From assembly GCA_900620265.3 (NCBI GenBank), contig UYNY03000006.1:1-42874 (forward strand): 42,874 bases of DNA, written 5' to 3'. The position numbers and the translations under genes are program-made. The stretch is from Nitrosopumilaceae archaeon. Lineage in GTDB: Archaea > Thermoproteota > Nitrososphaeria > Nitrososphaerales > Nitrosopumilaceae. Below are positions 1 through 35,737 of the stretch, in pieces. Under the pieces are notes generated by a model. That model had not been told where the DNA came from. It made no database searches and saw nothing but the letters and a program-made list of their open reading frames with translations. How positions within the stretch are numbered: the first letter of the stretch is position 1; every line of letters starts with the position of its first letter.

Positions 1-114
1 TGCGTCATCCTCCTTATGTGACTGCGCATCTCTCTTGCGTTCGTCATGGCCGACCCCCTGCACGGGGGATCTAAAAACCTTTCAACGTGCGCCTTTTTCT
101 TTTGAAAATTAATT

Positions 115-620
115 ATGAGCTGCACTATGGTTGTATCAAAGCTCTCATATGATACGCCGGGCATGAAAGATTTCAAGTGCAACAAGTCCGACATGAGCAT
201 GGAGTCCTATCTGAGGGGCACTGCCCTGGCTGATCAGAGGAAGAGGCGCAGCACCACGTATGTCTGGCATGACGAGAATGGGGTGTTGGCGGGATATGTT
301 ACAATAGCAAGTCACGCGGGCACGTCAAGACGGATCCCGATACGGGCGAATCATATGATGATCCCCTGTCGTTGCTGGATATGATAGCAAGACGGGAGGG
401 ATCCCGTTACAAGGGCACCGGAGCACATATGCCGGATTGGGTGGTCGGGTTTGCCAGAGAAATGTCAGAGTATGTGGGGTGCTCCGGCGTCATGCTGTAC
501 ACCAACAACGACGGAGTGGTCGAATTCTACAGAGGTCGCGGCTTTGAGCTCCTTGGCGATTCCAGCCGCGTCATGTTCTGTGATCTGGGCCCTGTGCACG
601 AGGGCCGGCGCGCCGCCTGA
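115..620 (+). pseudogene. GNAT-family acetyltransferase, frameshifted
   Basis: Two overlapping reading frames together give one GNAT N-acetyltransferase of about 168 residues, the usual length of stand-alone GNAT enzymes including TacT-type toxins. The first frame (115-384) carries the N-terminal part with a Cys-rich start, YLRGTALADQ and GYVTIAS (beta strands before the acetyl-CoA site). From about 303 the next frame continues with SLLDMIARREG, MPDWVVGFAREMSE and the C-terminal hallmark EFYRGRGFELLGDSSRV, ending at 620. The spanned length is one base short of a whole number of codons, so a 1-nt loss (or 2-nt gain) near 300-320 explains the break. The gene lies in AT-richer DNA than its neighbours, suggesting transfer. 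No partner antitoxin is visible before it, but the window starts only 114 nt upstream. The start could instead be the in-frame ATG at 127. Confidence 0.7.
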
Positions 621-6597: not shown

Positions 6598-9500
6598 ATG
6601 TACGGAGCCGGACGCGGGGAGCGCGGCGGCCCGCGCCCCGGACCAGGGGTTAGCGTGAGCGTGGTCCCCGCCCCCGGACTATCCATCATGCTCGGGCTTG
6701 CGGCCGCCCTGGTTGTGGCCGCGCTCGCCCCCGGGCTCGCGCACGCGCAGGCGCCCCCCCTCATAACAGAGGAGCCTGCCATCCCGTCGGCCGAGGAGGT
6801 GGCGAGGGCAAAGTTCGACCCCGGGTTCTATGAAAAGGTGCGGGATCTGGCAGACGGGGGCGCGCACGGGGCCAACCAGACCGATTCCAGGTATTACGGC
6901 GTGGTGATAGTGGCAAGCCGCCACGGCGGCGATCCCGGCGGCGCCGAGGGGAGCAAGGCGGCCCTGGTGGAGCGGCTCGGGCAGATGGGCGCGCTGGACA
7001 TCGTGCCGGCAGAGGAGCTCTCGTTCGTCACGGCCCGCGTGCCCGTCGGGATGATCCCGGATCTCTCGCTGATGGGCGAGGTGTACCAGCTGGGGGACGG
7101 CGAGCAGGAGCTGGATCTGGAGCCGCGGCTGGCGACTGCAAAGTCCGTCGTGCACGCGACCCCCGCGGAGATCCGCGCGGCGTCCGGGATGGCCGGGCTT
7201 GACGGCAGCGGGGTGCTGGTGGCCACGATGGAGAACATGTACCACCCGTCGGCGTTCGGCAGCCGCATAACCAAGCACATATCGTGCACGGAGAACGGCT
7301 GCACCGAGAATCCGGCGCTGCTTACCCACCGTGACAGCTGGGCCCGGCACGGGGTCCTGGTCGCGCAGATACTCGGCGCCTCCGGGTTCTCCACGTACAA
7401 CGGCATAGCGCCCGGCGTGAGCTTCATAAACATGCCCGTTGGGGCGACGGCCACCCAGCTCTCCACCTATGTCCACGCGATAGACAGGCTGGTAGGCGAG
7501 GGCGTCGACGTCATAAACATGAGCTTTGGGCGGCCGGAGAACTGCGCCCCCACCACGGTGTTCCTTGTACTGAACGAGGCGGCCGGCAGGGGCGTCGTGA
7601 TGGTGTCATCGGCCGGAAACGAGGGCAAGACGGGTGACGCGCCTAACGACCCGCCGAACTACGGCTCGATATCAAACCCCGGGTGCATGCGCAGCGTCAT
7701 CGCGGTCGGCGGCATAAACGACCAGAACCCGTCCAGCATCATACACAACCCCGGCTCGAGCAGGGGCCCCGGCAAGGATCCGAGCGGCGCCAACAACATA
7801 CTAAAGCCCGAGATCGTCGCGCCCGCGACCATATCCGGGCTGATCGGCGAGCGCGACAACCAGGACCGCAACTACATGGTCACCGGCACCAGCTTTGCCT
7901 CCCCGCTGGTGGCCGGGACGGCCGCGATCCTGCTGCAGGCCGACCCGTCCCTCACCCCCGTCGAGGTGAGGGGGGCGCTCCTGCTTGGCGCCAGGTGGAC
8001 CGGCCCCGACCAGTGCAACTCTGCCGGGTACGAGGCGGTGGATCCCGACAGCGGGTGCTCGCACGCGATGCAGGTGACAGACGGGACCCTCTCCGACGCC
8101 GAGGCCATGGGGGTGCTCAACAACATGGGGCTCGGGATACTTGATACGGCCGCCTCGGTAAGGTACGTGCTGGACGACGGGCACGTAGTCGCCGGCCAGA
8201 TAGGGGACAGCTCCGACACCCGGACGTACACGTTCACGGTCGGGGAGGCCGGCGAGCAGGTAAAGCTGATCATGACGTGGCTGGTGGACTCGCAGAACCC
8301 CTCCCAAAACCGGCTCAACACGGAGAGGATCTACGGCACGCCGAACCTGGACTTTGTGACCACGGATCCGGGCGGCGACCGGCTCGACCTGGCATCAGGC
8401 ACGTCGGCCTGGCAGAACACAGAGTTTGCCGTGTTCGACGCGCCCGAGGCCGGCACGTACACGGTGACGGTCGGCGGATCCGGCCTCGAGGCCGCCAACC
8501 AGCGCGGGCTCGGGTTTTCACTGGCAAGCACGCACCCGCTGGGCCGGGCGCCCGGGCCAGACGGCCTCCCCGAGGGGGAGGGCAGGACCGCCGTCTTCGA
8601 GCCCGGGCGCGCAACAAAGATACTTCTTGAGGCCGATGATCCGGACGGCGACCCCGTCTCGTTCCGCGTCTCCAAGGATCCCCGGAGCGGGACGCTCTCG
8701 GGGGTTATCCCCTCCGGGGATGCCTCGTACGTCGTATACGAGCAGGCCGGATCAACCCCCGACAGGTTCTCGGCCGTCCCGTACGACGGCACGGGCGAGG
8801 GCGGCCAGTTCACTGTGCGCATGGTGCCCGAGTCGCTGCCGGACGGCGCAAGATCCGACGGAGCGAGGCTGGCGCGCACAAACGGCACCGACGTGCTGGA
8901 GATCCCGGACGGGTCCGTCGGCCCCCTCTCCGTCCTGTTTCCGGGGAGGGACTATCCGGTAAAGTACGTGCAGCTGTACTCTGCAAACATGATAGAGCCC
9001 GTGGCGGAGATCCGCACGCCGGACGGCGCGTACACGGTGTCGGTCCCCGACGGGTACAGGCGGATCATACTCGAGGATCCCACCATGATATCGTCCGTCG
9101 CGATATCGGCAGGCGGGATCGACGCGGGGTTTGCGCACAGGACGGCGGGCGGCCCGGCCCGCGGGACGCACGTGTCGGTCGGATACCTGGGGGTGGCCCC
9201 GGAGAAGGAGGGGGCCCCCGAGGTATCCCCGGCCGGCCCGGACCCGCACCATGTGGCGGTCTCTGGCGGCACGTACGGGGACGTGGATCCGGGGGCGACA
9301 TGCACGGACGATGCCGGATCCACGTCATACACGAGCAACTCCAGCTCCGTCCCGCTGGACGCCCAAAAAAGGTTCACGGTGGCGTACACGTGCGCGGACG
9401 AGACCGGGTACTCGAGCAGCGCCACGCGCGTGGTAATAGTGGACGACGGGATTCCCGGAAGGCCGATCGTGGAAAGCGGCGGCCGCATAGGCGCGGGGGA

Positions 9501-12500
9501 GCAGCTGCCGGACGCCACGTGCGCGGACGTCCGGGGGGAGGGCACCAGGCTGAACGTGACCCTGCGTGACATCAACGGGCGCGCCGTGCCGCGTGCGTCC
9601 ACCGACGCGCCGGGCTCGTATGTCGCCACGTACGAGTGCCGCAACGCGGACGGCATGGCCGGCACCCCCGTCTCGCGCGACATCACGGTGGGTTTTGACG
9701 GCGGGGCGCCCCTGTACATGGATATTGCAAGGCCGGTCCGCACGGCATGCGGCGGGGAGCCGCTCCCGCCCGGCGAGGCGGCGTACGGCACGGCCGGCCT
9801 GTCAGTCTCCCTGCCGTACGACTCGGCCGACCGCGTCTCGTACATCGAGGTGCAGGCAGGCTCCACCGGACGGTCCCTTGCCATATACAACTTTACGGTG
9901 GACGGGGACCGGCTGACGGCCCTGGTGCCGCCCGGCGCGCTCGGGTTCATAACGGGGAGCATGCCGGGCGAGACGTTCTCCGCGTACGCGATAGAAAGCT
10001 CGATCTTCATAGACAGGCACCAGCTCAGTATCACGTCCGGAAGCCAGCTTGCATCCCTGGACGGAAAGCTGTTCAGGTACGTGGATCACCCGGGCGTGGG
10101 CCAGACGCAATACTCCAAGTTCGACCACATATCAGAGTATACCGCGCTTAACTCCGGCCGGCTGTATGAATTCGACGGTTCCAAGCTGGTCCAGCAGCGT
10201 GCCGTTATCTCCAATCCCGAGGTCCTCCTGGTCACATGCCACGCGCAGGTCGAGGCGCGCACGGCCGTGGACGGCCCGGATCCGCCGCCCGCAGTCGACA
10301 TATCCGGAGGATCTCCCCCGGCCATCACGGGCGCCCCGCCGGGCGGCATCATCCACTTTAGGGCCGGCGCCGCCGTGCCCTGGCACGGCATGTCGTGCAC
10401 GGACGGCGGCGTAGACGTGGCGATCACGCCGCCCCCCGGAGTCGGCGTCGACGCCGGCAGGAACGGCACCGTGGACGTCGAGTACTCGTGCACGGACGGC
10501 TCTGCCACCGACACGGAGACGATAACCTACCTGGTCGACGGCACGCCTCCCGTGGTGGCCCCGCCGGGCGGATCCGCCGACATCGAGGTGGGCGACGCGT
10601 TCTCGCCGGTCGCGGGGTCGTGCCGCGACCCGTACCCGGATCCGGCATCCTACGACGGGATCAACGAACCCTCTGCGGCGCGCTCCGGGCACAGCGAGGG
10701 CGACGTGAGGGGCGCGCTGGAGGGCAGGTCGCTCGGCACGTTCGTCACCATATTCGAGTGCGAGGACGCGGCCGGCAACGTGGCAAGATCGACGCTGACG
10801 CGCAACGTGGTGGATACGCGGGTCCCGAACCCGCCCACGGTGTCAAGGACCGAGGTGACCTCCACGGCCCCCGAGCCGATAGACTACGGCGACGTATCCT
10901 GCGACCCCGGGGACACGGGCACGCCGCTCCGGCTTGTAAACGACACCACCCGGGACGGCCTCACGTACGCGGGCGCGATAGACCCGTCCGTCCCCGGGAC
11001 GTACGTGGTCTCATACATGTGCGCCGACGCCAGCCAGAGCAGCAGTCCCGTGGTACAGACCGTCTCCGTGGAGCCCGGCGCCGCGGGGGCCGGACCCCCG
11101 GAGCTCGCCGGCGGCCCCCCGGACGGCCAGATCCACTTCAAGCGGGGTGACCCGGTCCCCGCACACGGCCTGACGTGCCGCGCCGGCGGCCTGGACCTGA
11201 CGTCCACGATCGCCCCCAACGCCACCGTCGACAAGGACGTCCAGGGCATGGTGCCGGTAAAGTACACGTGCACCCACGCGGGAGAGAGCGCCGAGCGGAC
11301 CGTCACGTATGTCGTGGACGGGACGGCCCCCGAGCTCGTGGCCACGAGGGTGCACTCGGGGAACCTGGAAAACCCGCACAAGATCCGCTTTGACCTGCAC
11401 GGGCACTTTGACGCCGAGATCGTGGGCTGCGTGGACGAGTATCCCGCCGCCAACCTGGATCACGAGGTGGTGAGGGACGGCGAGGACGCGATCCGGGAGG
11501 CATACGCGACCAAGACGGAGATCCTGGGCGCCGTCGTCACGTACAACTGCATGGACAGGGCCGGCAACAAGGCGGCCGAGGGGCGCTCCATCTTCGACGT
11601 GATTGACAGGCGGCCCCCCGGGAAGCCGAGCGTGTCGCCGCTGGAGATAGACTCCACGGAGGGCGAGGACGTGGACCTCGGCGACGCGGCCTGCACGCAG
11701 GACGGGGGCTCCAGGGTGCACGTCAGGAGCAACACCTACAGGGACGGGATGGAGATCTTCAGGCCCGGATTCCACGGCACGTCCGGCCCGTACGTCGACG
11801 TATCCGTCCCCGGCACGTACGAGGTCAGGTACTGGTGCGCCGACGCGCGCCACTCCAGCGGCGTCGTGACCCAGACGGTCACCATAAACCCGAGGCCGGT
11901 CCTGCTGTCCGGGCAGCCGGCCGGCCCGATCCGCCTGAAGGTGGGGGACGCCGTGCCCGCCCACGGGATCACGTGCACGGACCTGTCCGCGAACCCGGGG
12001 GAGGCACCGGAGACCGTCGACGGCGCCGTCGACCCGGACATGAACGGGACGCAGTACGTGACGTACCGGTGCGCCGATGACGGCGGGCGCGCCGAGGACG
12101 TCCGCGTCACGTACATAGTGGACGGGACCCCGCCCGTGATATCGGTGCCCGGGGCCTCGGTGCTGGAGCTCGGCTCCGAGTTCGAGCCGGAGGGCGCGAC
12201 GTGCACGGACCCGTACCCGCGGGAGAGGATAGGCGCGGCGGCCAGGACGGGCGAGGACGCCGTCAGGGCGGCGCTCGCGTCCGGCATGGAGCACCCCGGC
12301 GGCATCACCGTCACCTACACGTGCACCGACGCGGTCGGCAACGACGCCACCGCCAAGACGGCGTTCACGGTGCTGGACAGGACGCCCCCCGCCGAGCCGG
12401 ACCTGGATACCAGGAGCGTCGTGTCCGTTGCCGGCCGCATGATAGACTATGGGGCATCATGCGCGCAGGACGGGGGCACGCCCGTCATCCTGGGGAACAT

Positions 12501-15500
12501 GACGTACAAGGGGGACGAGGTGATCGGCAGGATCGACGCGTCCGAACCGGGATCCTACCGCGTCGACTATGTGTGCGCGGACTCGAAGCACAGGAGCAAC
12601 ACCGTGATGCAGCACGTGACCATACTGGCGGGCGGCGGGGCATCCGACTTTTCGGCACCGCCGGCCACCGGGGTGTATGTCCGGAACGCCTCCCACTACG
12701 ACCCGGGGGACGTGTGCGGCACGCCGGTAACGTACATGCCGGCGCTCAAGGGGCTCGAGGACGGCAGGCACCAGGTGGTGGCGTCGTGCGGCGCGGACGA
12801 CGCGCGCGTGGAGATCATAGTGGACAGCAGGCCGCCGGACATATCGCTGGACGGCGGCGGGACGCACTATCTCATGCCGGTGATGGGCGGGACGTACCTT
12901 GATGCGGATCCGGGGTACGAGTGCACCGACGAGCCGCCCGGCATCGTGGACACCCACGGCTCGGACGCGGGGGACCACCCGATATCGGCCAACGGCACGT
13001 TCGAGGTGTCATACACGTGCAGGGACGCGGCGGGCAACGTGAGGAACGAGACGCGCGACGTGGAGGTGGACGGCGGGAGGCCCGCGCCCCCGGCCGTTGA
13101 CGGCACGGACTCCACATACCGGATCGAGGTCGGCACGGCGTTCGCGCCGCCGGAGATGCGGTGCGTGCAGGACGGCGGGTCCCCCGTGCACCCCGCGGCA
13201 AGGCTGGCGTTCTACGACGGGGCCGGCGCGCGGATACCGGGGATCAGCGGATCCGCGCCGGTGGGCAGCTATGAGATGGATGCCTGGTGCGAGGACGCGG
13301 CGGGCAACAGGAGCTACGTGCTGGACCACTTTGTGGTGACGGTGGAGCCGCCCGCCCCGGTGCGCTCCGACGACGCCGTCTCGCTGCTCGAGGGCGGGGG
13401 CGACGCGCACGTCATGACCGTCTCCGAGTACAGGCACACCCTCGTCTGCAGGCCGGACGGCACAAACCCCGACAACAGCAGGCTGCTCTTCGACCCGCCG
13501 CTTGACATGCTGCGGGAGAACCATGCCAACAGGGTCAACGCGTCCTGCCCTGACCCGCAGAACAGGGTGGGCGACTCGTCCACGAAGGAGGTCACGATCA
13601 CGCTGGACACGCACGGGCCGGTGGTGTCGGTCCCGGCCGTCTACGCGCGCAAGACCGTGATCTACGTCTGGGACGGCAACCAGAACACGGCGTGGTCGGC
13701 CATACAGCCGAGGTTCAGGTGCGTGGACGCCCTGGACACGGATCCGGTGAGGTCCACGTCGTTCGAGCGAGAGCGGGTCGACCACCTGGACCACCTTGAC
13801 GAGCTGACACCCCACGTGATCGCCGACCACGTGGACGAGGACGGCAACGCGCACTTTGACGTCTTTACCATAACGTGCGAGGACGCGGCGGGCAACGAGC
13901 TGGTACAAAAGTACCCGGTGGTCCAGGACAGGAGGCTGAACCCGTTCGCGGATGTAGGCGGGACCGTGGCGCCCGTCATCAGCATCGAGAAGATGGTGCG
14001 CGAGGTGCCGTTCGGGTCGAGCTACACGTTCACCGACGAGGACCGGCGCTGCGGGGACTATACGCCGCACCAGATGGGGGACATCACGTACCACGCCTTC
14101 CTCCGGGGCCTGCAGGACGTCAGGCACCTCTGCGCCGACTCGGTCGGCTTTGGCAGGTACTCGATGACGCAGGTCTTCGTGCCGTTCCTGAACGGCCCCG
14201 CCATCACCATCCACCAGCCCGAGTTCGCGGTGAAGAGGGGCGATCAGATCCCGATCGACGGCATCGCCAGCTGCGTGGACAGCGGCGGCAGCCCGCTGCC
14301 CGTCACCATAGACGACAACTATTTCAAGTTCTTCTCGGTAAACTCGCCGGTAAAGTTCAAGCCCAGCAAGGCGTTCTCCTACGGGCTCAACGAGTGGCCG
14401 ATCCACGTCGTCTATACGTGCACGGACAGCATCGGCAGGCTGGCGGCCGCGTCGGCCGAGTTCGTCCAGGTCGCCTCGACCCCGCAGATAGGGCTGACGG
14501 GGATCACGAAGGAGAACAGGCGCGAGACGCTCGAGTCCGCGTTCAGGAACGCCCACATCGCAGGAACCGCCTATGAGGACCCCGGGGCCGACTGCTACTA
14601 CCACTTTGACGACCCGCCGGACCGCCCCATAACGGCCACCGAGAACGTGCCGGACGAGGACACAAGGCCGGGGACGCTGCTGAGGGTCGGGTATGTCTGC
14701 ACCTCGGACGACGGCGAGGAGACCACCAAGAGGCACAGGGTCGTAAAGGTGCTCGAGCGCAAGGTGATCGAGTTTGACAGCGGCTCGCCCGTCCACGAGG
14801 GCGGCGCGCCGCTCAGGGACGACGCAAGGTGCCTCGGCTTTGCGGGCCCGGTGGAGACGCCGGCCCCGGTGATAACGGGGCCCGATGGAGCGGTCGATCA
14901 GATAGGGATCTCGACGCCGGCCGGCACGTACACGCTGACCTACACGTGCACGGACACCCCGTTTGACCACGAGGGACTCGGCTCGCAGTCGCAGAGCAGG
15001 ACGTTCACCAGGGAGCTCCGGGTGACGGAGACGCCGGACACCCCGGTGATACTGCTTGACGGGCCGGATCCGGTCGCGGTCGTGCCCGGCAAGGTCTTTG
15101 AGGAGCCCGGCTACTCGTGCATGGACAGGCCCGGCGGGGAGAACGTCACGGCGTCCGTCACAACCAACGGGACCGGCTATGTCATGGGGTTCATGGACAC
15201 GGTAGTAAGATATGACTGCGAGGACGGGGACGGCAACCCCGCAAGGACCGTCTACAGGACGCTGCTGGCAGACCGCACCCCGCAGATAACCATAGGGGAG
15301 GTGCTGCCGGTAGAGAAGAAGTCCCTGGGGGCCAACCTGCCGACGGCCACCTGCACGCTCTTCGGGGGGGAGACGGTCGAGCTGGCGCCAAAGATGAAGG
15401 GCATCAAGTCCCGCACCACCAAGATAGGGGACCACAGGGTCGTGATAAGCCCGACGTACGAGGACAACTACGGGCTGCCGTTTGACGCCCCGACCAGGAC

Positions 15501-18500
15501 GCACACCATCACGTTCACGTGCACGTCCGGCGGCCTGACCGGCAGGGCGTCGGCCGAGTTCATCCAGGTGAACCCCAACCCGAGCATAAACGTGCCGGGG
15601 CTCCTGCGCACCAGCCTGGGCGAGACTGCCAGGTCGCAGCTGGCCAACCTGCGCCTGGCCGGGGACGAGTACTCGCACGACGGCGTACAGTGCCGCTATT
15701 ACAAGGAGCCGGGGCTGCTGTCAGTCGGCGACCCGGGGTTCGAGGTCACGGGCTCCGTGGGGACGGCCCCCGGCGTCTACAACATCACGTACACGTGCAG
15801 CCCGGAGAGCGCCGGGGAGAGGTCCCGCTCCGCCCCGCGCACGGTGTCCGTGCTGGAGAGGGCGGTCCCGGCGGTCACGGGCGCCGAGGATGTCACGCAC
15901 ACCGGCCCCGCCCCGTTCGCCGACACGGTGGGGTGCTCTGGGATATTCGGCGACTCGGAACTGCGCCCCGACATACCGGAGCCCGTCCTGTCCAGCAACA
16001 TAACGAGGGGCGGCGAGCTGGTGGACCGGGTGGCGGAGGAAGGCGTTTATGAGATCACCTACAGGTGCACAGAGTCGTACCTCGGCAGGGTCTTTGCGTC
16101 GGAGACGGCTGCCAGGACCGTGAAGGTGCCAGGATCCACGATCACCCCGCCGCCCCCGGGGCCCGTCCTCACCCTGGGCGCCCCCGAGGTCCACCTGAAG
16201 CCTCGCGACACGCACAAGCCCCCCCTCGAGTGCACGCTGGATGGCGCCGCGGTCAACGCCGACATCATGTCCAACGATACTAGCATCAGCAGGATCATAG
16301 ACGGCGTGCAGAACGTCACGGCGCCGGACGAGGAGGGCGCATACGGCGTAAAGTACACGTGCACGTCCGGCGGCCAGACGGCGGACAACATGCCAGAGTT
16401 CAGGGTGGTATCTGACGGCACCGGGCCGGCCGTGGCGGTCAACGCCTCGCTCCCGGTGGTATCCGGCCAGGTGCTGGCCCCGACGGACTTTCCGATCTCA
16501 AAGGTATACGCGTGCGTCGACACGTACGACCCGTCCCCGACCATGGAGGCCAACGGGCAGGGCGGCTCGTACATGTCGGGCGGCTTTGTCCCCGGCGACC
16601 AGTTCATACCGAACACCGAGGCGCTGGTCTTTGCGTCTATCCGCTGCACCGACGAGGCAGGCAACGTAGGCGAGGGGACCGCGTCGTACACCACCCGGCC
16701 CCCTCCCATCACCATGGGCATCGGCGGCTCGCCGGCCTACCTGATGCCGGGTGCGACGCACGACCCGCAGGTCACCTGCACCGTCGGCTCTGATCAGCTG
16801 ACGGACATGATAACGTCAAGCAGCCCCATCAGCGTGGTAGTGGACGGCAAGCACCAGATAACTGCCCCGGACACCGACGCCGATGACACCACCATAACCT
16901 ACACGTGCGCTAGGGACGGCCTGGCCACCCAGACGAGGACGTTCCGGGTGGTTACGGACGGCATCGGGCCGGCGCCGCCCACCGCACCCGGCGGCATAGA
17001 CATTGACTTTGGCACCGCGTATGATCCGGACGACAACAACGTCCGGTGCGCCAGCGACTCGGGCTCGCCGGTCCTGCCCGACGCCGAGTTCAAAATCTTT
17101 GACTCTGACGACAACGAGGTGGCGGCCATCACCACCACGACGCCGGCCGGCACGTACGACGTCAACTATACGTGCGTCGACGAGGCCGGGAACGCCGGCC
17201 CGGCGGCCACCCAGGTCGTGACGATACGCGACACGTCGGCGCCGTCCGGCCCGGCCACGGCGCTCGTCGGGACGGCCCCGGACGCCTACACCGACACGCC
17301 CGCCGGCTATGTCCACGGGCTCACCTGCGAGGAGGACGGCGTGGCAGTCGGCAATGACCGCATACTGTTTAACCCGCCGCTTGCGAACCTGGCCGAGAAC
17401 GCGAACAACACCGTCACGATCTACTGCCCCGACACGCAGGGGCTGACGTCAAGGGCGTCCAACCAGACGGTCCACATCATATATGACACCGAGGACCCGG
17501 AGATCCACTACGGCCGGGAGCTCGCGCTGCTTGATGACACCATCGGGCTGGTCGCGGGCGAGTCGCTGGCAGACCACGTCCGCTGCACGGACAACCTGGA
17601 CGCGGACCCCGCCGCAGAGTACTCTGATGACAACCTCGTCTCCTACAAGGCGCTCGGCGAGTTTGACGCGTCGTCGCCGCACACGGCCCGCGACATCGAC
17701 TTCCGCTGCGTCGACAGGGCGGGCAACGACCCGACGGACCAGGACTTTCCGGACCCGGCCTCGCTGCTAAAGTACGTGCGCACCGTAAAGGTGTACCCGG
17801 CGGAGCTGGGCATAGCCCGCGGTACGGACGGGGACGGGGCCCGGTACGGCGAGACCCTCTACTACAAGCGGGGCGCGGCGCTGCCCGGCGGCCTTGCGGT
17901 CTGCGGCGACGGCACCCTGGAATACTCCGTGGACGGCTCCGGGCCGTACAGGGGCGGCACCGACGGCAGGTACGTGCTGGACCTTGCGTGCACCGACGAG
18001 CTTGGCCGCGGGTCCGATACCGTCCGGTATGTCGTCTACGTGGACGGCGTGCCGCCGGCGCCCCCGACCGGGGTCGTGCCGGCGCACTCCCTTGATGTCG
18101 GCGAGGAGTTCGTGCCGCGCGCGGCGCGCGGCGCCGCCGCGTGCGAAAAGGCCGTGGATCCAGAGTCACCCGTGGTCCTGGCCAACGTGACGCTGGATAG
18201 CGGCGGCGCGGTGGCCGCGATCGACACCCTGAGCGAGGGATCCTATAGGATCAACTATACGTGCGTGGACGGGGCGGAGAACCGCAGCCCGCCGGTCACG
18301 CAGGCCGTCACGGTCAAGGCGGCGCCCGGGCGGGGCTCGGACCCCGAGATCACCGGCACGGGGGTGATCCACTTCAGGCAGGGCACCACGCCCGAGCCGC
18401 ACGGCCTGACGTGCTCGGACGGAGACGCCGACCTGACGTCCACGATCACAGGCGACATCACGGTCGACGAGAACACGCAGGATGGAAACGCCACCGTCAC

Positions 18501-21500
18501 GTACACGTGCACCGACGAGCGCGAGTCAAAGACCGATACACACAAGATAACCTACATAGTCGACGGGACGCCGCCGGTCATCTCGCCGCCGACGGGCACC
18601 GTCACGCTGGAGCTCGGCGAGACGTTCACCCCCGAGGACCCCACGTGTACCGACCCGTACCCGCGGGCCGAGATTACCCAGATAGACAGGGCCGGCCGCC
18701 CCGCCGTCGAGGCCGCGCTCCTCTCAAAGGCAGAGTCCGAACCGGAGATCACCTACGACTGCGAGGATGCAGTCGGCAACCCGGCCATCCAGTCGGTCCG
18801 CACGTTCGAGATCCGCGACACGACGGCGCCCGCGGCACCCGTCGTCTCCCGCGCGACCGTCACGGTGGCAGAGGGCGCCATGCTGGATCTCGGGGTCGTC
18901 GCGTGCACACAGGATGACGGGACGCCGGTCTCGCTCCGGAATGTCACCACGCTGGACAACAACCCCCACACGGGCCCCATAGACACGTCCGTGCCGGGCA
19001 CCTACGTGGTCACGTACACGTGCAATGATGCCAAACTTGCCAGCGAGCCGGCCCAGCAGACCGTCACAGTCGACCCCGCGCCGGGCAGGGGCGCCGACCC
19101 CGAGATCACCGGCGTGGATGTCATCCACTTCAGGCAGGGGACGGCGCCAGAGCCGCACGGCCTGACGTGCTCGGACGGAGACGCCGACCTGACGTCCACC
19201 ATCACCGCCGACAGGGTGGTCGACTCAGCCACCCCGACCGGCAACGCCACCGTCACGTACACCTGCACCGACGAGCGGGAGTCAAAGACCGACACGCACA
19301 AGATAATCTACATCGTGGATGGGACCGCCCCGGTGATATCCCCGCCGACGGGCACCGTGCAGCTGGAGCTCGGCGGGACGTTCTCCCCCGAGGACCCCAC
19401 CTGCACCGACCCGTATCCAGAGGCAAAGCTCGAGGTGGCCCGGGCCGGCCGCCCCGCCGTCGAGGCCGCGCTCCTCTCAAAGGCAGAGTCCGAACCGGAG
19501 ATCACCTACGACTGCGAGGATGCAGTCGGCAACCCGGCCATCCAGTCGGTCCGCACGTTCGAGATCCGCGACACGACGGCGCCCGCGGCACCCGTCGTCT
19601 CCCGCGCGACCGTCACGGTGGCAGAGGGCGCCATGCTGGATCTCGGGGTCGTCGCGTGCACACAGGATGACGGGACGCCGGTCTCGCTCCGGAATGTCAC
19701 CACGCTGGACAACAACCCCCACACGGGCCCCATAGACACGTCCGTGCCGGGCACCTACGTGGTCACGTACACGTGCAATGATGCCAAACTTGCCAGCGAG
19801 CCGGCCCAGCAGACCGTCACAGTCGACCCCGCGCCGGGCAGGGGCGCCGACCCCGAGATCACCGGCACGGGGGTGATCCACTTCAGGCAGGGCACCACGC
19901 CCGAGCCGCACGGCCTTGCCTGCACGGACGGCGGCGTGGATCTGACATCCACCATTACCGCTGACAGGACGGTCGACGACACCACTCAGACGGGCAACGC
20001 CACCGTCACGTACACCTGCACCGACGAGCGCGAGTCAAAGACGGTGACCCACAAGATAATCTACATAGTCGATGGTACGGCCCCGGTGATATCCCCGCCG
20101 ACGGGCACCGTGCAGCTAGAGCTCGGCGGGACGTTCGAGCCAGAGATGGTCACCTGCACCGACCCGTACCCGCGGGCCGAGATCGCGAAGATCGACAGGG
20201 ATGGCCGCGATGCCGTCGAGGCGGCACTCTCCTCCAAGGCAGAGTCCGACCCGGTGATCACATACGACTGCGACGACGCCGTCGGCAACCCCGCAACCCA
20301 GTCTGTCCGCACGTTCGAGATACGCGACACGACGGCGCCCGCGGCACCCGTCGTCTCCCGCGCGACCGTCACGGTGGCAGAGGACGCGATACCCGACCTA
20401 GGCGATGTCACGTGCGCTCAGGATCGCGGCACGCTGGTCTCGCTCCAGAATGTCACCACGCTGGATAACAACCCGCACGCCGGCCCAATCGACACATCGA
20501 GGCCCGGCACCTACGAGATAACCTACACGTGCCACGACGCCAAGCAGGCCGGCGAGCCGGCCGTGCAGACGGTCACCGTCGAGGCGGCGCCCGGCAGGGG
20601 CGCCGACCCCGAGATCACCGGCAGGGAAGTAATCCACTTCAGGCAGGGCACGGCACCGGATGCACACGGCCTGACGTGCGCCGACGGCTCCGTCGACCTG
20701 ACCGGGACGATCACCGGCGATATCACGGTCGACGAGAACACGCAGACGGGCAACGTCACAGTAACCTACACGTGCACCGACGAGCGCGAGTCAAAGACGG
20801 CAACCCACAAGATAACCTACATCGTGGACGGGACGGTCCCCGTCATATCCCCGCAGACGGGCACCATCCAGCTGGAGCTGGGCGAGACGTTCACGCCCGA
20901 GATAGTCACCTGCACCGACCCGTACCCCCGGGCCGCCATCTCCAATATAGAGAGGGCCGGCCGCGATATCGTCGAGGCGGCACTCTCCTCCAACTCAGAG
21001 TCCGAACCGGAGATCACCTACGACTGTACCGACGCAGTCGGCAACCCCGCCGTCCAATCCGTCCGCACCTTTGAGATACGCGACACGACCCGGCCCGTCA
21101 TCACGTTCTCGCACGATATAAGGGAGGTAGAGTTCAGAGGCGCGTACGAAGAGCCGGCCGCCACGTGTACCGACCTGCCGCGTCCCGCCAGCAGTGCGAT
21201 CCCCAACACCGGCGAGACAGTCGACACGGGCGCGGCCGGCACCTACACGGAGTCCTATACATGCGACGACGGGATAACAGGCCCGGTCACCGTCACACGC
21301 GCCGTGGTCGTGAACGCCGCCCTCAACACGCCCCCCGAGATACTGCTCAACTATATGAACAACTCGAACGTCGAGGTGGGGACGGACCCGACGGCCACCT
21401 GCAGGGACGCCGAGGACGGCGACAGCCCCGCCGCGCGCACGGGCGGGGAGGGCTTTGACGTCGACGACGGCACGTTCGGCTTTGCCGAGGACTCTCGCGC

Positions 21501-24500
21501 AAAGCCCTACACGTTCACGTACACGTGCACCGATACCGGCGGCCTGACAAACTCGACTACCGGCGTGATCACCCAGGTCAGCGACGTCCCGCACCTTGCC
21601 ATCACGGCGTTCGACTATAACGCCGACGGCAAGATGACCTTTGCCGCCCTGGTCGACACGTTCCACCGCCTGAACAACGACTATACCCAGGAGGATCCAA
21701 AGTGCTACCACCACTCCGTCGGCGAGATCCAGCGCGACACGGAATACATACCGGAGATAAGCGACAAAGTCAAGGAGGCCATCAGGGACGATCTGGGCCC
21801 GCACGACGTCACCCACACCTGCACGGTCGACGGCAGGTCCAACACGCTGGTCCACACCGTCTATACCATCTCTAGGGACCTGCCTGCCATCACCATCCGC
21901 CCCGGCCCGGAGGCGATCCACGCGCTCGGCGATATATTCGAGCCCCTCTCAACGTGCTCGCCGCTCTTTGGCGACGACCTGCCGCTTGAGCCCTCCATAG
22001 TGGACGTGGACGGCACGGAGGTCGGCGCGATCGACGAGTCGACCCCGAGGGGCAAGTACGTGATCACCTACTCTTGCACCCAGACCATAGAGGAGACTGA
22101 CCACCACGAGCGCGTCACGATCGAGGCCGCCGCCGCCATGCTCACGGTCGACGTGACAGAGCGGATAAAGCCCAGGCTGGTTGTGCCCAACGACAGGATC
22201 GTCCACCCGCTCGGCGAGGCCCTTGATCTTGCGGCCATCGGCGTCACGTGCGCCGACGGCGAGGGATCCGCCACGCTGGAGCACGACCCGCCGATCACCG
22301 CATCGACCCCGCCCGACGCGATAGACGTGGCAGTCACGTGCACCGACGAGTCGGGCAACTATGTGAGGAGGACGGTCGAGGTCGTCATAACCGACATGGA
22401 CACGCCGCTGATCACGCTGCTCGGGGATCCGGTGATCACGTCCGAGGGCCACCTCTTCCGCGACCCGGGCGCCTCGTGCACCGACGTGCAAGACGGCCGG
22501 CTCGGCGTCACGACCGAGACAACGCGCTACGGCACGGACGGCGCAGCCGAGATCGGCGAGCCGGGCAGGTACGAGATGACCTACCACTGCACCGACTCTG
22601 ACGGCAACAAGGCAGAGCCGGTCACGCGGACCGTCCACGTCGGCAGGGTCGGCGACGCCCTGCCCCCGGTGATCAGCATCAACGGCTTCTCCACCACCAT
22701 GATAGAGACCGGCGATGCGTATCTTGACGGGGGTGCCGTCTGCAGCGACGCCAACTATGGGGACCTGCCCGTCGTGGTGCGCGAGGAGGTCGACGCGGCA
22801 AGGCCGGGCTCGTATTCCGTCACCTACACGTGCACCGACGGCACGTTCACCAGTACGGCCAAGAGGACCGTCGACGTGGTGGCCGAGGTGCCCGAGGATG
22901 TCACGCCCCCCGAGATCCGGATACCTAGCGGGTTCGAGGAGTTTGCCGCCATGGATACCGGCTCTACGCAGACGGCCGGCCCCGTGGGCGCGCTGCCCCC
23001 GCCCGGATCCACGGCGGCGGGCGGCGCGACGGGCATCATCGATCCTGCCGGCAACGCCACGTTCGCGCCCGCGCCGTCTCCCGGCGGTGCCGCCTCGTCG
23101 CATGCAGACCGCCTGCCGCACCGCCAGGGGACAGAGTTCGTGCCCCCGATACTCTGGTGCGTCGACGGGATCAACTATGCCGGCGAGGAGATACGTACGG
23201 CGTCAAACTCGTCACACATGATCACCACGTCAACGGCCGCCGGGCATGAAGAGGTCACATACACGTGCAAGGACGCGGCGGGCAACATCGCGACGCAGGT
23301 CGTCCTGCGGGTAGAGGTCGAGGAGGAGGGGCGCCCGGCGGCCGCCTCGCTGCACGGATCCAGGACCATCTCGCTGGAGCCCGGCCAGGTATACAGGGAG
23401 GAGGGCGCGATGTGCGATGACGGCAGGTTCAACAGGCCCGACCGCCAGCTGCTGCCGGTCATCCAGCCCGGCAGCGACAACCCGGCCGAGTTCTCAAAGC
23501 CCGGCAGGTACGAGATAAACTACGCGTGCGAGGCGGCCGGTACCATGTCGGGGATCATCACCCGGATCATCATCGTAAAGCCCGGCGGGTCCAGCGAGGA
23601 GGACTGGCAGCTGAACCCCACGTTCGGGCTCTCGTGGCTTGACAACACGCAGGCCGTCCGCGGCGGGTTCTCGTTTGATGGCAGGTACGTTGACGTGACG
23701 GACAACTTCCACGCATCGTTCGCAAGGATCGACGCGGCCGTCGGCGAGGAGCACGTCGTCACGGCAAAGGCATATTCAGAGCGGGACCTTGAGCGGTTCA
23801 CCATATACCTGGGCGTGCCGGACGTCTCGCGCGCGACGGACGCCGAGGCCGAGATCGCCATAGATGTCACCCCGGATAGCGCGGCAGAGTCGTGGTACTC
23901 CATACTGGGCACCTCCCACGAGCAGGAGGACCCGCTGGTTGACGTGGACCACACCCGGGCGGAGATACGCAGGGTGGCCTGCAGCCCCGGCTCTGATATC
24001 AAGTGCCTCGAGGTCGAGGTGGCGTTCCGCGTCATGGCGCCGCTCTCGTCCGATATAATGGCGATATCGGCGATGGATACGGAGCGCCGCGTCACCGTCA
24101 CCTATGTGAACGACGGGGTGACGTTCACCGGCGACTCGCTGCTCCCGCCAAGGACCGCCTCGTTCACCTTCCGGGCCGGCAACCAGCATCCGGCGGAGGA
24201 GGTCCACCTGGTGCAAAAGGACCGCAGGTACAACGTCTGGGAGGACCAGCACGGGTTCGCCTGGCTGCAGAACCAGTACGGCTCGTGGACGCAGGTCACG
24301 CATGCGGAGTTTGAGCGCCTGGCAGATCCTGCCGTCTCGGTGGTGACGCGCCACCACGACTCGTTCGCCGATCTTCTGCGCGCGGAGCAGGAGCGCGCGG
24401 CACTAGTATTCAACGCGACGGACCTGCAGCGCGAGGTCGGCGGGTCGTTCAGCCACGACGCCCCCGTCCGGGTTGAAAAGCTAAAGGATCCGGCGATCCT

Positions 24501-24555
24501 CGAGCGGCTCCACATATCGGAGCTTGCCGCCCTCGAGTACCTGGGCCGGCCCTAG
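6598..24555 (+). CDS. Giant secreted subtilase-like protein with Cys-paired Ig-like repeats
   Basis: Up to 5,985 residues. A Gly/Arg-rich stretch precedes a signal sequence (MLGLAAALVVAALAPGLAHA, from ATG 6688, which may be the true start). Residues about 195-455 form an S8 subtilase-like domain: His251 in RHGVLVAQILGA, the oxyanion Asn341 in VSSAGNEG and Ser432 in GTSFASPLVAG are present, but the catalytic Asp position reads Glu212 (VLVATMENMYHP). A beta domain (about 538-645, RTYTFTVGEAGEQ to GTYTVTV) resembles a pre-peptidase C-terminal domain. Then about 5,000 residues of DUF5011/HYR-like Ig modules follow, typically VDGTPPVIS...CTDPYP...ITYTCTDAVGN, each with two Cys, probably disulfides. 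Residues about 5,670-5,985 are a non-repeated C-terminal domain (NPTFGLSWLDN, EDQHGFAWLQNQYGSW). No C-terminal membrane anchor is seen. A surface or secreted adhesin/protease is inferred. It shares CTAG with pfkB-like at its 3' end. Confidence 0.88.
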   Translation: MYGAGRGERGGPRPGPGVSVSVVPAPGLSIMLGLAAALVVAALAPGLAHAQAPPLITEEPAIPSAEEVARAKFDPGFYEKVRDLADGGAHGANQTDSRYYGVVIVASRHGGDPGGAEGSKAALVERLGQMGALDIVPAEELSFVTARVPVGMIPDLSLMGEVYQLGDGEQELDLEPRLATAKSVVHATPAEIRAASGMAGLDGSGVLVATMENMYHPSAFGSRITKHISCTENGCTENPALLTHRDSWARHGVLVAQILGASGFSTYNGIAPGVSFINMPVGATATQLSTYVHAIDRLVGEGVDVINMSFGRPENCAPTTVFLVLNEAAGRGVVMVSSAGNEGKTGDAPNDPPNYGSISNPGCMRSVIAVGGINDQNPSSIIHNPGSSRGPGKDPSGANNILKPEIVAPATISGLIGERDNQDRNYMVTGTSFASPLVAGTAAILLQADPSLTPVEVRGALLLGARWTGPDQCNSAGYEAVDPDSGCSHAMQVTDGTLSDAEAMGVLNNMGLGILDTAASVRYVLDDGHVVAGQIGDSSDTRTYTFTVGEAGEQVKLIMTWLVDSQNPSQNRLNTERIYGTPNLDFVTTDPGGDRLDLASGTSAWQNTEFAVFDAPEAGTYTVTVGGSGLEAANQRGLGFSLASTHPLGRAPGPDGLPEGEGRTAVFEPGRATKILLEADDPDGDPVSFRVSKDPRSGTLSGVIPSGDASYVVYEQAGSTPDRFSAVPYDGTGEGGQFTVRMVPESLPDGARSDGARLARTNGTDVLEIPDGSVGPLSVLFPGRDYPVKYVQLYSANMIEPVAEIRTPDGAYTVSVPDGYRRIILEDPTMISSVAISAGGIDAGFAHRTAGGPARGTHVSVGYLGVAPEKEGAPEVSPAGPDPHHVAVSGGTYGDVDPGATCTDDAGSTSYTSNSSSVPLDAQKRFTVAYTCADETGYSSSATRVVIVDDGIPGRPIVESGGRIGAGEQLPDATCADVRGEGTRLNVTLRDINGRAVPRASTDAPGSYVATYECRNADGMAGTPVSRDITVGFDGGAPLYMDIARPVRTACGGEPLPPGEAAYGTAGLSVSLPYDSADRVSYIEVQAGSTGRSLAIYNFTVDGDRLTALVPPGALGFITGSMPGETFSAYAIESSIFIDRHQLSITSGSQLASLDGKLFRYVDHPGVGQTQYSKFDHISEYTALNSGRLYEFDGSKLVQQRAVISNPEVLLVTCHAQVEARTAVDGPDPPPAVDISGGSPPAITGAPPGGIIHFRAGAAVPWHGMSCTDGGVDVAITPPPGVGVDAGRNGTVDVEYSCTDGSATDTETITYLVDGTPPVVAPPGGSADIEVGDAFSPVAGSCRDPYPDPASYDGINEPSAARSGHSEGDVRGALEGRSLGTFVTIFECEDAAGNVARSTLTRNVVDTRVPNPPTVSRTEVTSTAPEPIDYGDVSCDPGDTGTPLRLVNDTTRDGLTYAGAIDPSVPGTYVVSYMCADASQSSSPVVQTVSVEPGAAGAGPPELAGGPPDGQIHFKRGDPVPAHGLTCRAGGLDLTSTIAPNATVDKDVQGMVPVKYTCTHAGESAERTVTYVVDGTAPELVATRVHSGNLENPHKIRFDLHGHFDAEIVGCVDEYPAANLDHEVVRDGEDAIREAYATKTEILGAVVTYNCMDRAGNKAAEGRSIFDVIDRRPPGKPSVSPLEIDSTEGEDVDLGDAACTQDGGSRVHVRSNTYRDGMEIFRPGFHGTSGPYVDVSVPGTYEVRYWCADARHSSGVVTQTVTINPRPVLLSGQPAGPIRLKVGDAVPAHGITCTDLSANPGEAPETVDGAVDPDMNGTQYVTYRCADDGGRAEDVRVTYIVDGTPPVISVPGASVLELGSEFEPEGATCTDPYPRERIGAAARTGEDAVRAALASGMEHPGGITVTYTCTDAVGNDATAKTAFTVLDRTPPAEPDLDTRSVVSVAGRMIDYGASCAQDGGTPVILGNMTYKGDEVIGRIDASEPGSYRVDYVCADSKHRSNTVMQHVTILAGGGASDFSAPPATGVYVRNASHYDPGDVCGTPVTYMPALKGLEDGRHQVVASCGADDARVEIIVDSRPPDISLDGGGTHYLMPVMGGTYLDADPGYECTDEPPGIVDTHGSDAGDHPISANGTFEVSYTCRDAAGNVRNETRDVEVDGGRPAPPAVDGTDSTYRIEVGTAFAPPEMRCVQDGGSPVHPAARLAFYDGAGARIPGISGSAPVGSYEMDAWCEDAAGNRSYVLDHFVVTVEPPAPVRSDDAVSLLEGGGDAHVMTVSEYRHTLVCRPDGTNPDNSRLLFDPPLDMLRENHANRVNASCPDPQNRVGDSSTKEVTITLDTHGPVVSVPAVYARKTVIYVWDGNQNTAWSAIQPRFRCVDALDTDPVRSTSFERERVDHLDHLDELTPHVIADHVDEDGNAHFDVFTITCEDAAGNELVQKYPVVQDRRLNPFADVGGTVAPVISIEKMVREVPFGSSYTFTDEDRRCGDYTPHQMGDITYHAFLRGLQDVRHLCADSVGFGRYSMTQVFVPFLNGPAITIHQPEFAVKRGDQIPIDGIASCVDSGGSPLPVTIDDNYFKFFSVNSPVKFKPSKAFSYGLNEWPIHVVYTCTDSIGRLAAASAEFVQVASTPQIGLTGITKENRRETLESAFRNAHIAGTAYEDPGADCYYHFDDPPDRPITATENVPDEDTRPGTLLRVGYVCTSDDGEETTKRHRVVKVLERKVIEFDSGSPVHEGGAPLRDDARCLGFAGPVETPAPVITGPDGAVDQIGISTPAGTYTLTYTCTDTPFDHEGLGSQSQSRTFTRELRVTETPDTPVILLDGPDPVAVVPGKVFEEPGYSCMDRPGGENVTASVTTNGTGYVMGFMDTVVRYDCEDGDGNPARTVYRTLLADRTPQITIGEVLPVEKKSLGANLPTATCTLFGGETVELAPKMKGIKSRTTKIGDHRVVISPTYEDNYGLPFDAPTRTHTITFTCTSGGLTGRASAEFIQVNPNPSINVPGLLRTSLGETARSQLANLRLAGDEYSHDGVQCRYYKEPGLLSVGDPGFEVTGSVGTAPGVYNITYTCSPESAGERSRSAPRTVSVLERAVPAVTGAEDVTHTGPAPFADTVGCSGIFGDSELRPDIPEPVLSSNITRGGELVDRVAEEGVYEITYRCTESYLGRVFASETAARTVKVPGSTITPPPPGPVLTLGAPEVHLKPRDTHKPPLECTLDGAAVNADIMSNDTSISRIIDGVQNVTAPDEEGAYGVKYTCTSGGQTADNMPEFRVVSDGTGPAVAVNASLPVVSGQVLAPTDFPISKVYACVDTYDPSPTMEANGQGGSYMSGGFVPGDQFIPNTEALVFASIRCTDEAGNVGEGTASYTTRPPPITMGIGGSPAYLMPGATHDPQVTCTVGSDQLTDMITSSSPISVVVDGKHQITAPDTDADDTTITYTCARDGLATQTRTFRVVTDGIGPAPPTAPGGIDIDFGTAYDPDDNNVRCASDSGSPVLPDAEFKIFDSDDNEVAAITTTTPAGTYDVNYTCVDEAGNAGPAATQVVTIRDTSAPSGPATALVGTAPDAYTDTPAGYVHGLTCEEDGVAVGNDRILFNPPLANLAENANNTVTIYCPDTQGLTSRASNQTVHIIYDTEDPEIHYGRELALLDDTIGLVAGESLADHVRCTDNLDADPAAEYSDDNLVSYKALGEFDASSPHTARDIDFRCVDRAGNDPTDQDFPDPASLLKYVRTVKVYPAELGIARGTDGDGARYGETLYYKRGAALPGGLAVCGDGTLEYSVDGSGPYRGGTDGRYVLDLACTDELGRGSDTVRYVVYVDGVPPAPPTGVVPAHSLDVGEEFVPRAARGAAACEKAVDPESPVVLANVTLDSGGAVAAIDTLSEGSYRINYTCVDGAENRSPPVTQAVTVKAAPGRGSDPEITGTGVIHFRQGTTPEPHGLTCSDGDADLTSTITGDITVDENTQDGNATVTYTCTDERESKTDTHKITYIVDGTPPVISPPTGTVTLELGETFTPEDPTCTDPYPRAEITQIDRAGRPAVEAALLSKAESEPEITYDCEDAVGNPAIQSVRTFEIRDTTAPAAPVVSRATVTVAEGAMLDLGVVACTQDDGTPVSLRNVTTLDNNPHTGPIDTSVPGTYVVTYTCNDAKLASEPAQQTVTVDPAPGRGADPEITGVDVIHFRQGTAPEPHGLTCSDGDADLTSTITADRVVDSATPTGNATVTYTCTDERESKTDTHKIIYIVDGTAPVISPPTGTVQLELGGTFSPEDPTCTDPYPEAKLEVARAGRPAVEAALLSKAESEPEITYDCEDAVGNPAIQSVRTFEIRDTTAPAAPVVSRATVTVAEGAMLDLGVVACTQDDGTPVSLRNVTTLDNNPHTGPIDTSVPGTYVVTYTCNDAKLASEPAQQTVTVDPAPGRGADPEITGTGVIHFRQGTTPEPHGLACTDGGVDLTSTITADRTVDDTTQTGNATVTYTCTDERESKTVTHKIIYIVDGTAPVISPPTGTVQLELGGTFEPEMVTCTDPYPRAEIAKIDRDGRDAVEAALSSKAESDPVITYDCDDAVGNPATQSVRTFEIRDTTAPAAPVVSRATVTVAEDAIPDLGDVTCAQDRGTLVSLQNVTTLDNNPHAGPIDTSRPGTYEITYTCHDAKQAGEPAVQTVTVEAAPGRGADPEITGREVIHFRQGTAPDAHGLTCADGSVDLTGTITGDITVDENTQTGNVTVTYTCTDERESKTATHKITYIVDGTVPVISPQTGTIQLELGETFTPEIVTCTDPYPRAAISNIERAGRDIVEAALSSNSESEPEITYDCTDAVGNPAVQSVRTFEIRDTTRPVITFSHDIREVEFRGAYEEPAATCTDLPRPASSAIPNTGETVDTGAAGTYTESYTCDDGITGPVTVTRAVVVNAALNTPPEILLNYMNNSNVEVGTDPTATCRDAEDGDSPAARTGGEGFDVDDGTFGFAEDSRAKPYTFTYTCTDTGGLTNSTTGVITQVSDVPHLAITAFDYNADGKMTFAALVDTFHRLNNDYTQEDPKCYHHSVGEIQRDTEYIPEISDKVKEAIRDDLGPHDVTHTCTVDGRSNTLVHTVYTISRDLPAITIRPGPEAIHALGDIFEPLSTCSPLFGDDLPLEPSIVDVDGTEVGAIDESTPRGKYVITYSCTQTIEETDHHERVTIEAAAAMLTVDVTERIKPRLVVPNDRIVHPLGEALDLAAIGVTCADGEGSATLEHDPPITASTPPDAIDVAVTCTDESGNYVRRTVEVVITDMDTPLITLLGDPVITSEGHLFRDPGASCTDVQDGRLGVTTETTRYGTDGAAEIGEPGRYEMTYHCTDSDGNKAEPVTRTVHVGRVGDALPPVISINGFSTTMIETGDAYLDGGAVCSDANYGDLPVVVREEVDAARPGSYSVTYTCTDGTFTSTAKRTVDVVAEVPEDVTPPEIRIPSGFEEFAAMDTGSTQTAGPVGALPPPGSTAAGGATGIIDPAGNATFAPAPSPGGAASSHADRLPHRQGTEFVPPILWCVDGINYAGEEIRTASNSSHMITTSTAAGHEEVTYTCKDAAGNIATQVVLRVEVEEEGRPAAASLHGSRTISLEPGQVYREEGAMCDDGRFNRPDRQLLPVIQPGSDNPAEFSKPGRYEINYACEAAGTMSGIITRIIIVKPGGSSEEDWQLNPTFGLSWLDNTQAVRGGFSFDGRYVDVTDNFHASFARIDAAVGEEHVVTAKAYSERDLERFTIYLGVPDVSRATDAEAEIAIDVTPDSAAESWYSILGTSHEQEDPLVDVDHTRAEIRRVACSPGSDIKCLEVEVAFRVMAPLSSDIMAISAMDTERRVTVTYVNDGVTFTGDSLLPPRTASFTFRAGNQHPAEEVHLVQKDRRYNVWEDQHGFAWLQNQYGSWTQVTHAEFERLADPAVSVVTRHHDSFADLLRAEQERAALVFNATDLQREVGGSFSHDAPVRVEKLKDPAILERLHISELAALEYLGRP
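10291..12633 (+). repeat. Three diverged copies of a ~260-residue super-module in the giant gene
   Basis: Within the giant protein (residues about 1,232-2,012) three long modules follow each other with heads at about 10342 (GGIIHFRAGAAVPWHGMSC), 11122 (GQIHFKRGDPVPAHGLTC) and 11926 (GPIRLKVGDAVPAHGITC). Each continues through VDGTxPxx, a CxDPYP or CxDEYP block and a PPxxPxVS linker. They are the diverged relatives of the near-identical array at 18.3-21.1 kb. Confidence 0.75.
18689..19113 (+). repeat. 425-bp exact direct repeat, copy A
   Basis: Compared base by base with copy B at 19442-19866 (offset 753 bp), this stretch shows no difference. It spans the second half of super-repeat 1 and the head of super-repeat 2. 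Confidence 0.9.
19442..19866 (+). repeat. 425-bp exact direct repeat, copy B
   Basis: Identical to copy A at 18689-19113. Just downstream (to about 19915) it matches the head of unit 1 (18341-18406) rather than unit 2, a mosaic expected from unequal crossing over or gene conversion. Confidence 0.9.
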
Positions 24556-34822: not shown

Positions 34823-35737
34823 TTGCCGTTTGAGAGGAACTCTCTGATACTGGTGGACTATACGGCGCGCGTAAAGGACACCGGCGAGGTGTTCGAGACG
34901 ACCCGGGGGGACGTGGCCCGGGAGCACCTGCCCGACGGCGACGCGGGGCAGGGCCCGCGCCTGGTCTCGATCGGGGGGCGCTCGTACCCGGTGCTCTCGG
35001 GGTTCGGCGAGGCGCTGGCCGGCGCGTCGGTGGGCGAGTCGATCACGGTGGACATCGAGCCCGAGAGGGGGTTCGGTGCACGCGACAAGAAAAAGGTGCG
35101 CATGATGCCGCTGCGCAAGCTCGGCGATGACGCCGAGACGGCCGAGGCCGGCGACAGCGTCGAGGTGGACGGGCGCAAGGGAGTCATCAGGTTCGTCGGA
35201 TCCGGCAGGGTGCAGGTAGACTTTAACCACAGGCACGCCGGCAAGACCCTCACGTTCGAGGGTACCGTGACGGCCCACCTCCAGTCCGCCGAGGAGAAGG
35301 CGGGGGCGATCCTTGAGAACAAGCTGCAAAAGGGGATCACGTTCAAGCTGGAGGGGGGCGGCCTCGAGGTCGAGATACCCGCCGAGATTGCCGGCGCCGA
35401 CGACCTACAGACGAAGAAGGGGATGGCCCGGGCGGACATCTTCCTCTTCGTGCCAGAGCTGGAGAGCATCACGTACCTTGAAAAACACGTTAACGCAAAG
35501 GCGGCCCGAGCAGCCGGCGCCGGCGGCGCCGGGGGGCAGGCAGATCCCCCGCAGGAGCACGACCATGATCACGACCACCCCCACGACCATGATCACGCGC
35601 ACGACCATGATCACGCGCACGACCATGATCACGCGCACGACCATGATCACGCGCACGACCATGATCACGTGCACGACCATGATCACGTGCACGACCATGA
35701 TCACGACCGCCCCCCGGACGGTACCCCCAAGCAATAG
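34823..35737 (+). CDS. FKBP-type peptidyl-prolyl isomerase (SlyD-like) with His/Asp tail
   Basis: A 304-residue prolyl isomerase/chaperone. The FKBP part is split by an insert-in-flap domain as in SlyD: SLILVDYTARVKDTGEVFET (8-27), YPVLSGFGEALAGASVGESI (active-site strand), ERGFGARDKKKV, then the IF domain with GVIRFVGSGRVQVDFNHRHA and GKTLTFEGTVTAHL. An archaeal-type C-terminal domain of about 80 residues follows (ILENKLQKGITFKLEGG). The tail from about residue 246 is made of HDHDHA/HDHDHV repeats and should bind Ni, Zn or Cu. TTG 34823 is chosen because it fits the family start (PFERNSLILVDY) and the TATA box about 28 nt upstream. Confidence 0.92.
   Translation: MPFERNSLILVDYTARVKDTGEVFETTRGDVAREHLPDGDAGQGPRLVSIGGRSYPVLSGFGEALAGASVGESITVDIEPERGFGARDKKKVRMMPLRKLGDDAETAEAGDSVEVDGRKGVIRFVGSGRVQVDFNHRHAGKTLTFEGTVTAHLQSAEEKAGAILENKLQKGITFKLEGGGLEVEIPAEIAGADDLQTKKGMARADIFLFVPELESITYLEKHVNAKAARAAGAGGAGGQADPPQEHDHDHDHPHDHDHAHDHDHAHDHDHAHDHDHAHDHDHVHDHDHVHDHDHDRPPDGTPKQ
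35558..35706 (+). repeat. 18-bp tandem repeat encoding a His/Asp metal-binding tail
   Basis: Unit CACGACCATGATCACGCG (His-Asp-His-Asp-His-Ala), four copies with GCG and two with GTG in the last codon, flanked by partial units. The near-perfect units can expand or contract by slippage without shifting the frame. Confidence 0.9.

Follow-up and report, generated by a model that had tools for sequence, protein, structure and literature searches.

Highly identical tandem folded domains whose number changes protein length at the population level are known from the Periscope Proteins, for which the available texts propose recombination as the cause (PMC8201768, PMC9704523). 'Candidatus Nitrosospongia ianthellae' is an ammonia-oxidising archaeon that lives as a sponge symbiont; its MAG has 1.99 Mbp in 113 contigs, and the consulted portion of its description lists 11 S08A genes as well as Ig-like domains and hyaline repeats (PMC6790972). 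That short-read assembly is hazardous for repeat genes is already in print, according to the text available of PMC6868369. The DNA analysed here, hereafter the window, is the whole of contig 6 (42,874 bases) in a genome of 1,996,680 bases and 113 contigs. In size and contig number this genome matches the published 'Ca. Nitrosospongia ianthellae' MAG, an assignment with which the high GC and the biology agree.

Domain anatomy of the giant open reading frame

The 425-bp exact repeat and the Ig-like array that surrounds it both lie inside a single open reading frame (6598-24555, forward strand, as are all features of this protein described below), the translation of which is a giant multi-domain protein of 5,985 aa. 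Its N-terminus is hydrophobic and signal-like as read from the translation, and the protein is predicted to be secreted. Pfam places a subtilase domain close to the N-terminus and recognises numerous Ig-like domains, of which an iterated profile derived from the repeats counts 47, to be read as about 47 overall.

The Peptidase S8 domain (PF00082, aa 236-465, 7303-7992) reaches 114.2 bits against a gathering cut-off of 21.8. Subtilases act through an Asp-His-Ser catalytic triad, recognisable by its motifs. The His and Ser motifs are present in the window protein. The column of the catalytic Asp, located just upstream of the Pfam match at about 7210-7310, reads Glu in the window protein and Asp in all five aligned paralogues, and a one-residue gap adjoins it. 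Because this column reads Glu, the protease activity of the window protein is uncertain, and the domain is possibly impaired or a pseudo-protease. The genome contains nine matches to the subtilase domain: the window's own, seven paralogues (39-44% identity) and one weak match.

At the other end of the protein lies a conserved C-terminal domain common to the paralogues (24034-24552, about 170 aa), for which Pfam and NCBIfam returned no match. The C-terminal 170 aa have 14 matches in the genome, including one that is partial (contig C36) and one that contains a stop (C110). The domain recurs in giant Ig-repeat proteins both here and in some relatives in the genus: it was matched in 15 of 95 same-genus genomes, own included (E <= 0.001), with strong matches in four other genomes (G076, G077, G010 and G072), and the named matches are the MAGs Nitrosopumilus sp. 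H13 and D6. The nearest relatives of the window organism have been linked to the sponge Hexadella dedritifera in the accessible part of PMC10947273. A structure prediction of the domain had a mean pLDDT of 44.4, too low to use; it is possibly an anchoring or sorting domain.

The young part of the array consists of three full units and a partial fourth, the unit being three Ig-like domains of about 252 aa together. Unit 1 (U1, 18340-19095, 756 bp) comprises domains A (18340-18576), B (18577-18825) and C (18826-19095). It is followed by unit 2 (U2, 19096-19848, 753 bp), unit 3 (U3, 19849-20604, 756 bp) and the partial unit 4 (U4, 20605-21097), which contains domains A and B before the sequence departs from the family. 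Three older, diverged three-domain units, 39-45% identical to U1, lie upstream within 10342-12645 (10342-11091, 11122-11904 and 11920-12645). At the protein level U1 is 92% identical to U2 and 82% to U3, and the values for U4 and the older units are 39-66%. A Cys pair is conserved in each of domains A, B and C. AlphaFold2 predicts the unit with a mean pLDDT of 90.1 and beta strands in all three domains, and the PDB chains matched by fold are mostly beta-sandwiches of Ig-like or cadherin type; their Z values are middling (about 6 to 9), and these predicted similarities therefore support the fold class only. The gathering score of PF16403 (Bact_surface_Ig-like), 27, is exceeded both by U1 (49.9 bits) and by the C-terminal half of the protein (239.5 bits). 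The dN/dS between U1 and U3 is about 0.24, calculated as the ratio of the computed values, which shows that the units are constrained and not diversifying coding sequence.

A much shorter repeat occurs elsewhere in the window, where about seven nearly perfect 18-bp repeats (35582-35705) encode the His/Asp-rich tail of an FKBP-type open reading frame (34823-35737).

The 425-bp tract and the unit heads

The maximal exact match between U1 and U2 joins 18689-19113 to 19442-19866, a tract of 425 bp repeated at a shift of 753 bp; no exact repeat in the window is longer. The first copy runs from within domain B through domain C into the start of the next domain A. The breakpoints thus lie within domains rather than at their ends, midway through B and shortly after the start of the next A. 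Between the two copies lies the 328-bp head of U2 (19114-19441), which occurs once in the MAG and has its nearest copies at 80-85% identity. An earlier note on this DNA had described the 425-bp identity as extending to silent sites, and this holds to the base: U1 and U2 differ at none of 108.0 synonymous and 297 non-synonymous sites of the tract, with a 95% upper bound on dS of 0.028. The first halves of the units do differ, as the same note had stated. Outside the tract U1 and U2 are 84.3% identical (18361-18660 compared with +756), with a dS of 0.51 over 82.5 synonymous sites, and the unit heads have a dS of 0.48-0.62 across all six unit pairs. The homologous tract of U3 stands at a dS of 0.47 from both U1 and U2.

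At the 84% identity found elsewhere, 425 identical columns have a probability of about 7e-33. Among 154 polymorphic columns, the longest run concordant between U1 and U2 was 69, compared with a maximum of 25 in 20,000 shuffles. The exact repeat is therefore real in this assembly and far beyond chance. The expansion had been called very recent; that wording stands in a relative sense, since the tract appears recent when set against unit divergence (dS below about 0.03 versus about 0.5). A SPAdes consensus may mask a few SNPs through bulge removal. The exact identity of the tract rests on such a consensus and may hide a few.

The heads have a more complicated history. The claim that the head of U3 matches U1 and not U2 applies only to its first 68 bp (18340-18407 = 19849-19916), of which 18 bp already belong to the shared tract; taken over its full length, the head of U3 is equidistant from U1 and U2, being 83.5% identical to each. 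In other parts of the head a run of 18 polymorphic columns is common to U1 and U2, a length reached in 0 of 20,000 shuffles, and further shared runs join U1 to U3 (13 columns), U2 to U3 (12) and U1 to U4 (11), with pairwise p values of about 0.002, 0.001 and 0.002, respectively. Since short runs are shared in several pairings, the resemblance of U3 to U1 is local, confined to the 68 bp, and not general, and the unit heads are several-way mosaics.

Copy number in the assembly and the proposed route of exchange

The published MAG is a SPAdes 3.11.0 assembly of Nextera libraries sequenced as 2 x 150 and 2 x 300 reads, as given in the available text (PMC6790972). Contig ends overlap by exactly 127 bp (window 2-128 with C84 1-127, C82 with C36, C84 with C32, and the start of C71 with an internal stretch of C94), and k was therefore 127. 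Window positions 2-128 themselves mark a junction that exists in several copies and that the assembly graph leaves unresolved: 127 bp recur at the start of C84 and 125 bp in C32. The k=127 graph of the window branches at two nodes only, each of them at the tract, and one, two, three or five copies of the 753-bp loop made of head 2 and tract yield identical 128-mer sets. Zero copies, in contrast, would lose 455 of the assembly's 128-mers. Because the locus is a loop in which several copy numbers give the same k-mers, the array as assembled is a minimum, and U2 is hard to remove. The earlier warning that assemblies can go astray here is thus borne out for a short-read SPAdes assembly at this k.

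Two kinds of assembly error have to be weighed. The loop of head 2 and tract may truly be present at least twice, so that the protein would be longer than 5,985 aa. We regard such a collapse as a minority possibility that deserves to be kept in view: the shared 128-mer sets allow it and it is compatible with the explanation favoured below, but the sequence itself does not call for additional copies. The opposite error, in which the assembler brought in the second tract or all of U2 from a different strain or locus and the true array runs head 1, tract, head 3, seems improbable to us. The assembly is a short-read SPAdes MAG in which the 425-bp repeat exceeds k=127, so that the order depends on read pairs, and the populations are strain mixtures with an ANI of 98.2% between individuals (PMC6790972, in the text available). 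Against this, head 2 is a single-copy sequence in the MAG, with the tract on both its flanks in the assembled path, removal of head 2 and tract makes the 455 128-mers vanish, the frame is kept, and there is no N in 17400-22200. Pairs of the 2 x 300 library could span 425 bp. If the assembly errs at all, collapse of extra copies is likelier than a single true tract.

Contig ends were also considered as a place where these arrays might be enriched, an idea that was rejected: the family makes up about 4% of the genome, and about 8 of 226 ends would be expected in it by chance. Contig ends cut open reading frames on C55, C82, C113, C73 and C69, and the broken end of C55 shares no 127-mer with other contigs of the MAG.

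Recombination between units is strongly supported by the sequence comparison. Unequal crossing over or gene conversion had been proposed earlier; exchange between units is upheld, and a single crossover within one allele is disfavoured, since only 425 of 753 bp are identical. Plain tandem duplication by one such crossover, followed by divergence, would explain the head-to-tail layout within one gene, but it would have made all 753 bp identical, whereas 328 bp diverged by about 16-19% adjoin 425 unchanged bp, and divergence cannot stop that sharply at a tract edge; we consider it very improbable. That 328 of 753 bp are still about 16-19% diverged calls for a conversion tract or an exchange between unlike alleles, and these are the favoured readings; a single sequence does not allow gene conversion to be distinguished from a crossover between alleles. 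Selection holding the tract identical in place of recombination can practically be dismissed, for although the units are constrained, the silent sites are identical (0/108) and the homologous U3 tract has nonetheless diverged.

The simplest route would be a gene conversion of about 425 bp between U1 and U2, and the alternative an exchange, out of register, between alleles that differ in their heads; the mosaic heads are probably the trace of earlier, shorter events. Breakpoints inside domains B and A are what homology-driven exchange predicts. Frame and fold would survive because the units are multiples of 3 bp and the breakpoints lie at homologous positions, and a repeat stalk of this kind could lengthen, shorten and homogenise without loss of function. 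Good matches to the tract were found at four places in the MAG and good matches to head 2 likewise at four, all in this array. A search of the contigs binned into the MAG found no good silent donor copy beyond contig 6, the best-scoring matches being 81% over about 85 bp for the tract and 68% over about 259 bp for head 2. Because tract and head 2 match well only in the array, the exchange looks intragenic.

Two other mechanisms were rejected: cassette-type antigenic variation, as well-matching donor copies are lacking elsewhere in the MAG, and a diversity-generating retroelement, as the reverse transcriptase PF00078 had no match in the genome (MAG 96% complete), compared with 3 of 14 control genomes positive.

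Taken together, we think it likely that three-Ig-domain units form a young tandem array in a giant, putatively secreted protein of a sponge-symbiont archaeon, and that part of one unit was overwritten by its neighbour through homologous recombination. The tract with its boundaries, the mosaic heads, the domain layout, the constraint acting on units and, in one paralogue, an independent likeness between neighbouring units are directly observed, whereas the pathway, the donor and the date, as well as a stalk or spacer role of the array, are inferred.

Paralogues, relatives and known systems

A tree of 28 complete units (support threshold 95/80) places U1-U3 with the older units of this gene and the units of the paralogue on C55 in a 100/100 set of 10 rows that is otherwise unresolved inside. 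The end branches of U1-U3 are short, the first two units of C55 are sisters (100/100), and U4 pairs with the third C55 unit (87/100, below the threshold). Both paralogue arrays thus seem to have grown internally after the genes split. The C55 repeats contain exact stretches of up to 99 bp at a spacing of 768 bp. No long internal exact repeats were present in most paralogues checked, and frequent exchange is therefore not family-wide. Two subtilase genes on separate contigs, L043 (C71) and L050 (C22), have exact stretches of up to 218 bp in common, pointing to a probable recent duplication or conversion between paralogues too.

Array units were detected in 3 of 61 genomes (own plus 60 relatives). 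The other two positives were weak, and so they offer no orthologous array for comparison. A scan of named GTDB relatives with U1 and U2 gave 7 pattern-matching stretches, none confirmed, and none of the viral contigs searched matched. In a single-contig genome of the same genus, the surface-type protein L080 (G035:C1:1139170-1145708, minus strand) contains about 12-14 almost perfect 468-bp tandem repeats of two Ig-like domains each, with the frame interrupted inside the array; as a candidate for a Periscope-type protein in archaea it is stronger than the window.

We regard the event in the window as a real and well-bounded exchange within the coding array of one gene, and a recent one; it is of an ordinary kind and notable for its size, its host and its hidden copy number. 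It illustrates clearly how homogenisation can affect part of a repeat unit in a giant archaeal protein, and it shows why a repeat count taken from a symbiont genome assembled from short reads ought to be treated as a lower bound. A more far-reaching reading, rather unlikely in our judgement, is that the locus is a collapsed hypervariable Periscope-type array, with cells of the symbiont in a single sponge differing in their number of 753-bp units and hence in how long this host-facing, subtilase-like protein is. If array length does vary, a mechanism of bacterial surface variation would extend to animal-dwelling archaea. Neither this duplication nor any archaeal Periscope Protein was found described in the literature searched, which excluded subscription papers and supplements.

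Among known systems, the S08A subtilase and Ig/HYR proteins of 'Ca. Nitrosospongia ianthellae' are presented in the available text without discussion of repeat units, exact duplications or array length (PMC6790972). Prokaryotic coding satellites resemble the window in being in-gene tandem repeats with periods that are multiples of 3, in archaea and bacteria; they are described as mostly short, whereas the window unit is about 753 bp with a period identical only in part (PMC6749651, in its accessible text). PF16403 Bact_surface_Ig-like and HYR-type proteins share the sequence match and the predicted Ig-like fold, but the window differs from them in its three-domain higher-order unit and its conserved Cys pair in each domain. 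The Periscope Proteins SasG, Rib and Sgo_0707, as far as the texts available describe them, likewise combine an N-terminal functional domain with a long tandem-domain stalk in a secreted protein, and show local DNA-level identity of tandem domains, where recombination within the gene has been put forward as the means by which repeat number changes (PMC8201768, PMC9704523). Periscope Proteins are also marked by repeat numbers that differ among closely related strains, and by attachment to the cell surface with the repeats forming a rod. Unlike them, the window is archaeal, has a three-domain unit with most units diverged, and confines its identity to one 425-bp tract; it is known from one short-read genome, and the likeness covers domain layout and DNA-level identity. 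By analogy, we therefore describe the window array as like a weak Periscope form and do not file it as a member.
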